Of a stretch of DNA of 48,076 nucleotides, positions 33,738-34,830 are shown piece after piece. The stretch is from Bacteroidia bacterium. Its GTDB lineage: Bacteria; Bacteroidota; Bacteroidia; SpSt-205. The notes beneath the pieces are model-generated. The model was not told the origin of the DNA, did no database searches, and saw only the letters and a program-made list of their open reading frames with translations. The first letter of the stretch is position 1; each line of letters opens with the position of its first letter. The translations under genes were made by a program, and so were the position numbers. Location: contig JANXAJ010000015.1 of NCBI GenBank assembly GCA_025062295.1, positions 1 through 48,076 of the forward strand, read 5' to 3'.

Positions 33738-33745
33738 TATCTTTG
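33738..33745 (+). promoter_or_regulatory. -7 element of prfB
   Basis: TATCTTTG, exact match, 4 nt before the prfB ATG at 33750. Confidence 0.75.
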
Positions 33746-33749
33746 CAGC

Positions 33750-34830
33750 ATGACCATAGAAGCCATTCGCTTGCTCAAAGAGCGGTTGTCGGCTCTAAGG
33801 AGGTTTCTTTGACATTCCTCAACGAGAAGCCCTCGTGGCTGATTTAGAAGCGGAGAGCCAGAGCCCTAAGTTCTGGGAAGAGCCTGATCGCGCTCGTCAG
33901 GTCTTAGCTCGCCTCAAAGCAGAAAAAGAGTGGGTTGAGAAGTATAAAGAAGTTGCCTTTGCCGTGGAGTTAGCAGAGGTAGCTTTGGAGCTGTACAAAA
34001 GCTCAGATGTGGAAGAAGAGGAACTCAAACGCGCTTTTGTTGAAGCGGAGCGGCTGCTTACGGAGTTAGAGTGGCAGAAAATGCTCTCTCATCCAGAAGA
34101 TGCCTATGGGTGCATCATAGAGATTAATGCAGGAGCAGGGGGGACTGAAGCTCAGGATTGGGTAGCTATGCTGGCTCGTATGTACATGATGTATGCCCAG
34201 AAAAAAGGCTGGCCTGTCGTCATCGTGGATGAACTGCTGGGAGAAGGGGCGGGATATCGAAACATTACCTTAGAGATAGATGCTCCCTACGCCTATGGGT
34301 ATTTGAAGGGCGAGAGTGGTGTTCATCGCTTAGTGCGCATTTCCCCCTTTGATGCAAACGCCCGAAGGCATACTTCCTTCGCAGGGGTCTCTGTTTATCC
34401 GCTCGTAGATGATCGTATAGAGATCAAGATTGATCCTAATGACTTAGAATGGGAGACCTTCCGAGCGGGCGGGCACGGCGGGCAGAATGTGAATAAAGTA
34501 GAGACAGCGGTTCGGGTGCGACACCTTCCCACGGGTATTGTGGTAAGCTGTCAGCAAGAGCGTTCTCAGCATCAAAACCGAGAGAAAGCACTCAAAATCC
34601 TAAAGAGTCGCCTCTACCAATTGGAGCTTCAAAAGCGTCAGGAGGAGCGAGCGAAATTAGAAGCTCAGAAGCGTCCAATTGAATGGGGATCACAGATTCG
34701 GAGCTATGTGCTTCATCCTTACAAGCTGGTGAAAGACTTACGCACAGATTACGAGACCAGTGATGCTCAGAGCGTCTTAGATGGAGACATAGAACCTTTT
34801 CTGAAAAGCTATCTTCTTCAATTCACCTGA
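33750..34830 (+). CDS. prfB: Peptide chain release factor 2, with programmed +1 frameshift
   Basis: Terminates translation at UGA and UAA. The first frame (33750-33812) encodes 20 residues ending ALRRFL and stops at TGA. A +1 shift at CTT TGA C then enters the long frame beginning DIPQREAL, giving 359 aa in total, close to E. coli RF2 (365 aa). The RF2 anticodon-like tripeptide SPF (in RISPFDAN) and the peptidyl-tRNA hydrolysis motif GGQ (GGHGGQNVN) are both present. The long frame alone has no sensible start, so this is autoregulation by frameshifting and not a mutation. Confidence 0.96.
33797..33813 (+). promoter_or_regulatory. prfB programmed +1 frameshift signal
   Basis: AAGGAGG (33797-33803), a Shine-Dalgarno-like stimulator, is followed by TTT, the slippery CTT codon (33807-33809) and TGA (33810-33812) with C next. 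The 3-nt spacing between the stimulator and CTT is the same as in E. coli prfB. Confidence 0.95.

Follow-up and report, generated by a model that had tools for sequence, protein, structure and literature searches.

A release factor 2 frameshift site in a Bacteroidia family with predicted leaderless genes

Why should an element resembling a Shine-Dalgarno (SD) sequence persist inside prfB, the gene of release factor 2 (RF2), where genes seem to be started without SD pairing? The question is raised by one locus in the window, by which we mean the whole stretch of 48,076 nucleotides analysed here (contig JANXAJ010000015.1 of a Bacteroidia bacterium). It belongs to a broader question that the window's family addresses, namely why the anti-Shine-Dalgarno (ASD) is conserved in bacteria that do not initiate with it. 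We consider prfB of the window, with a probability of about 0.88, to carry a classical autoregulatory RF2 +1 programmed frameshift, placed in a leaderless-prone Bacteroidia lineage without SD initiation. SD-dependent prfB frameshifting has been described for 72% of 726 Bacteroidia genomes despite their occluded ASD (McNutt et al. 2021, PMC8710568). Since the frameshift in SD-blind Bacteroidia was published in 2021, the central surprise of an earlier note on this DNA, SD pairing kept for frameshifting and not for initiation, was already known. What is added here is the setting: a family with leaderless spacing of its promoter boxes and an rpsU gene devoid of an SD, in which a perfect prfB site has been retained.

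The prfB locus and its conservation

The RF2 gene is read directly from the sequence with a single +1 shift (Table 1). Joining of its two frames yields a protein that scores 482.5 bits against TIGR00020 (cut-off 370) and contains the SPF and GGQ motifs. The earlier note had described a start with TATCTTTG four nucleotides before ATG, AAGGAGG 3 nt before CTT TGA C and a first frame of 20 codons, and all these details were correct on re-reading.

Table 1. Features of the prfB locus and further start-proximal boxes in the window
Feature	Position	Strand	Basis
RF2 gene prfB, ATG to TGA, one +1 shift	33750-34830	+	direct reading of the sequence
Putative -7 box TATCTTTG (TAHHTTTG type, Bacteroidota primary-sigma promoter)	33738-33745	+	sequence; genome-wide box counts
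Spacer CAGC, 4 nt; predicted transcription start site (TSS) = A of ATG at 33750	33746-33749	+	F. johnsoniae spacing (PMC6847099); genome-wide peak at gap 4
prfB frame 0, 20 codons and in-frame TGA (33810-33812)	33750-33812	+	direct reading
Internal SD-like AAGGAGGT (AAGGAGG = 33797-33803)	33797-33804	+	8 bp with ACCUCCUU, -11.8 kcal/mol
TTT, 3-nt gap between AAGGAGG and CTT TGA C	33804-33806	+	direct reading
Slippery site and weak stop CTT TGA C (CTT 33807-33809, C 33813)	33807-33813	+	sequence, conservation
prfB frame +1, rest of RF2, GAC (GAC ATT CCT CAA...) to TGA	33811-34830	+	reading frame; TIGR00020 for the joined protein
Starts with a box (examples)	2745, 45733	-	
Starts with a box (examples)	2809, 16019, 33750	+	
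Predicted leaderless promoters of two divergent genes	2743-2757; 2797-2811	-; +	

A whole-genome search with the pattern AGGNGG-NNN-CTTTGAC gave a single exact match in 2.05 Mb, which is the prfB site. We compared prfB of the window species with that of nine relatives (L001-L008 and L025; RF2 79-85% identical to the query). The 19 nt of CTA AGG AGG TTT CTT TGA C do not differ between the ten species, in contrast to the majority of the remaining first-frame codons. Rare codons are among those kept, since AGG makes up 8% of the Arg codons and CTA 8% of the Leu codons in the sampled genes. The ten species have a common ancestry and therefore do not represent ten independent trials, yet silent positions within the same 20 codons have changed. 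From the uniqueness of the motif in the genome and the invariance of the 19 nt, the prfB site of the window is not due to chance. We also weighed internal initiation at GTG 33835 as a substitute for frameshifting; conservation of the 20-codon frame throughout the ten species speaks against it, and it was rejected.

In a more distant relative (SKYG53, locus L009; RF2 63% identical), TTT CTT TGA C is kept and the SD is degraded (AGGTAAG, -3.7 kcal/mol). The prfB ATG of this relative has no adjoining -7 box, and its site lies just upstream of position 2001 of L009. In L009 the shift site has thus persisted beside a weak SD; in the wider group strong pairing is no strict requirement.

SD pairing, promoter boxes and the ASD pocket

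Gene statistics were obtained from a 446-kb sample, which covers 22% of the window's genome and 356 genes. Upstream of 329 starts the mean pairing energy was -1.56 kcal/mol compared to -1.43 kcal/mol for shuffled sequences, without SD enrichment in any gene class; for operon-internal genes the values differed little as well (-2.13 and -1.84 kcal/mol). With the same method the SD signal of E. coli, our positive control, was detected (-6.13 versus -3.90 kcal/mol shuffled). AGGAGG-N4-10-ATG occurred 268 times versus 193 times for the reversed control in the window's genome and 223 versus 288 times in a genome of the same genus (G006), giving no consistent SD signal. In agreement with the earlier note, which had supposed that SD pairing is not used for initiation, SD sites are thus not widespread upstream of starts.

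The note had also proposed inspection of the 16S rRNA. This was done in G006, the single-contig KatS3mg025 record of 2,268,343 bp that is also the source of prfB locus L025. An Rfam search for 16S gave no hit in the window's genome or in its genus, G006 included; most of the G006 16S gene reads N, and its unmasked 3' end was the part used. The 16S 3' end of this same-genus genome (...GGCTGGATTACCTCCTTTCTGG), read there and not in the window species, holds an intact ASD, so that the interpretation was not refuted. It includes ACCTCCTTTCT, which is able to pair with the prfB site, and between this ASD and AAGGAGGU 8 pairs are possible (-11.8 kcal/mol). The invariant site and the intact ASD of the same genus support the idea that SD pairing has been retained for the RF2 frameshift, and we infer that it is SD-ASD pairing that drives the shift here.

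In F. johnsoniae TSSs lie 4-5 nt downstream of TAHHTTTG (PMC6847099). The corresponding arrangement TANNTTTG-N4-ATG is found 161 times in the window's genome, compared to 8 times for the reversed pattern. TAnnTTTG occurs 3-8 nt before a candidate start in 90 of the 356 sampled genes, with a sharp peak at a gap of 4, whereas in the leadered comparator G141 only 4 of 138 genes have a box at gaps 3-6. Leaderless-spaced TAHHTTTG boxes precede 36-55% of the divergently transcribed genes of the sample. When one fixed start was used per gene, 39 of 108 divergent-first genes had a box, and 0-2 in shuffles. We cite strict counts only, since allowing one mismatch inflates the number of boxes called in AT-rich comparators (G141, 13/34). 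Two divergent genes of the window have back-to-back predicted leaderless promoters, with the -7 boxes about 39 bp apart (Table 1).

According to published accounts (PMC9976891, PMC10618245), the ASD is occluded by contacts with Tyr54 of bS21 and Phe50, Gln58, Leu62 and Leu66 of bS18. Tyr54 of bS21 and Phe50, Gln58 and Leu62 of bS18 are kept here and position 66 of bS18 is Ile, with the bS18 numbering placed by spacing; hence the ASD of the window's family is predicted to be occluded in a bS21/bS18 pocket. In Flavobacteriales rpsU has an extended SD, which is used for autoregulation of bS21. In the 11 family genomes analysed for this gene (L134-L144), the rpsU ATG in every case follows a -7 box at a distance of 4-7 nt, once with a mismatch in the box, and no SD was found between the two. 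There is no evident SD upstream of rpsR. Since rpsU is predicted to be leaderless and lacks an SD, the autoregulation of bS21 known from Flavobacteriales could not work here in that form.

Proposed mechanism and alternatives

We propose that transcription units of this lineage often begin at the start codon or a few nucleotides from it and are initiated without SD pairing, while the bS21/bS18/bS6 pocket would normally retain the ASD. At low RF2 levels this ASD would pair with AAGGAGGU immediately behind the P site and put strain on the mRNA; the tRNA would then slip from CUU to UUU, and reading of frame +1 would yield RF2. At high levels, RF2 would terminate translation at UGA. For the window species the efficiency of the shift, autoregulation and an ASD set free from its pocket are, like all steps beyond the sequence, deduced by extrapolation from work on E. 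coli and F. johnsoniae. More of the sampled genes end in TGA than in any other stop (163 of 356 genes, 46%), so RF2 is presumably needed in quantity and the prfB site should be efficient.

AAGGAGG might instead be an evolutionary relic, with shifting at CTTTGAC resulting mainly from slow termination and the SD kept by weak constraint or inheritance without any working pairing. Several observations are compatible with this. Occlusion of the ASD is predicted from the retained pocket residues, and the distant relative L009 has the shift site despite a weak SD. In F. johnsoniae prfB frameshifting is reportedly inefficient (PMC12421855) and can be removed without a fitness cost (PMC8710568), so that conservation need not imply efficient use. 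The low efficiency in F. johnsoniae has, however, been excused by its low TGA usage (PMC12421855), and with TGA at 46% of the stops inefficient shifting should be costly in the window's lineage. In addition, all six codons of the site, the two AGG, CTA and TTT included, are invariant across ten species that differ elsewhere in RF2, and Weeksellaceae with an altered ASD are uniformly without the frameshift (PMC8710568). We therefore regard a mere relic as unlikely and retain the pairing-driven frameshift.

The box next to the prfB ATG could likewise be misread: TAnnTTTG might be a translation-initiation element or a coincidence, and prfB might be carried on a longer or polycistronic message that begins upstream of the beta-glucosidase-like gene, whose end is just 40 nt from the prfB ATG. 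A -33 element, which was sought upstream of the boxes, is not visible. However, mapped F. johnsoniae promoters are themselves without a clear -33 motif (PMC6847099), and G is scarce at both free positions of our box (11% and 3%), as it is in these promoters. Of the 108 divergent-first genes, 59 have a box at a candidate start, compared to just 8 of the 145 operon-internal ones, a distribution like that of promoters, and upstream of prfB the box is found 4-5 nt from the ATG in all ten species, in one with a single mismatch. This makes a message from further upstream very improbable. From the excess at divergent-first genes and the G-poor free positions, the box near the ATG is most likely a promoter. 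The prfB mRNA is accordingly predicted to be leaderless, and many transcripts of the window's genome should begin at the start codon or a few nucleotides from it, with TSSs deduced from box spacing.

Known systems and the reach of the predicted leaderless trait

The prfB site shares with the E. coli type of RF2 frameshift (PMC12421855, PMC8710568) the SD-like hexamer, the 3-nt spacer, CTT TGA C, a short first frame and an RF2-specific stop. It differs from E. coli prfB by the full AAGGAGGU (8 bp) in place of AGGGGG and by an mRNA that is predicted to be leaderless. A perfect SD-like site, the lack of SD initiation and an intact ASD that is occluded, here by prediction, are common to the window's family and to F. 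johnsoniae (McNutt et al. 2021, PMC8710568). In F. johnsoniae, however, mRNAs are mostly leadered (87% of leaders >10 nt, PMC6847099), rpsU has a strong SD and TGA represents 7% of the stops (PMC12421855), whereas here the genes are largely leaderless by prediction, no SD precedes rpsU and TGA usage is high. In leaderless-rich Actinobacteria and Deinococcus-Thermus (PMC3160421) many starts likewise lie at a leaderless distance from a promoter box, but theirs is Pribnow-like while the box here is the Bacteroidota TAHHTTTG. The prfB frameshift is absent from all surveyed Actinomycetota genomes (PMC12421855) but kept in the window's family.

Short leaders are rare in other Bacteroidota for which values were published, with 5.5% leaderless mRNAs in F. 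psychrophilum and 3.7% of leaders <10 nt in B. thetaiotaomicron. A survey confined to Pribnow-like boxes covered 37 Bacteroidetes/Chlorobi genomes and reported leaderless genes for 1 of them, and a comparative study of nucleotide biases suggested leaderless mRNAs in Bacteroidota (PMC5397173). Our literature search, in open-licence papers, found no earlier description of a mainly leaderless Bacteroidota lineage; a whole family with start codons placed right at the mRNA 5' end appears to be new.

We surveyed the box in 197 genomes of the class. The genus of the window has 152-223 sites versus 6-23 controls per genome, while counts in most other families are roughly 1-2 times the control. The trait is present in a second genus of the window's family (G011; 251 versus 17, gaps 4-6). 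It is weak or absent in G012, the sole genome of the sister family in the order (205 versus 121). Leaderless TAHHTTTG spacing is apparently a family-level trait within Bacteroidia, comprising the window's genome and 11 other genomes (12 in total). This suggests the existence of a mainly leaderless-looking lineage within the Bacteroidota, a phylum regarded as mostly leadered, which is relevant to start-site annotation of the genomes concerned.

In the window's family SD-ASD pairing may by now serve mainly prfB. The stronger claim, that this hot-spring Bacteroidia family is mainly leaderless, rpsU included, with SD-ASD pairing left solely or chiefly for the prfB frameshift, is put forward tentatively, and we rather doubt that it holds in full. 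If true, the ASD of these ribosomes would be conserved largely for frameshifting in the elongation phase and not for initiation. Its predicted leaderless genes, its lack of an rpsU SD, its perfect prfB site and the high demand for RF2 make the family a natural system in which to ask whether frameshifting by itself can preserve the ASD, and on account of its high TGA usage it is a useful second test case beside F. johnsoniae.

A milder excess was seen in a second Bacteroidia family, f40 (G050, G089 and G121; L168-L175), where TANNTTTG-N4-ATG reaches 3-5 times the control; the sample from G050 has 34% GC. This family possibly made an independent move to leaderless starts.
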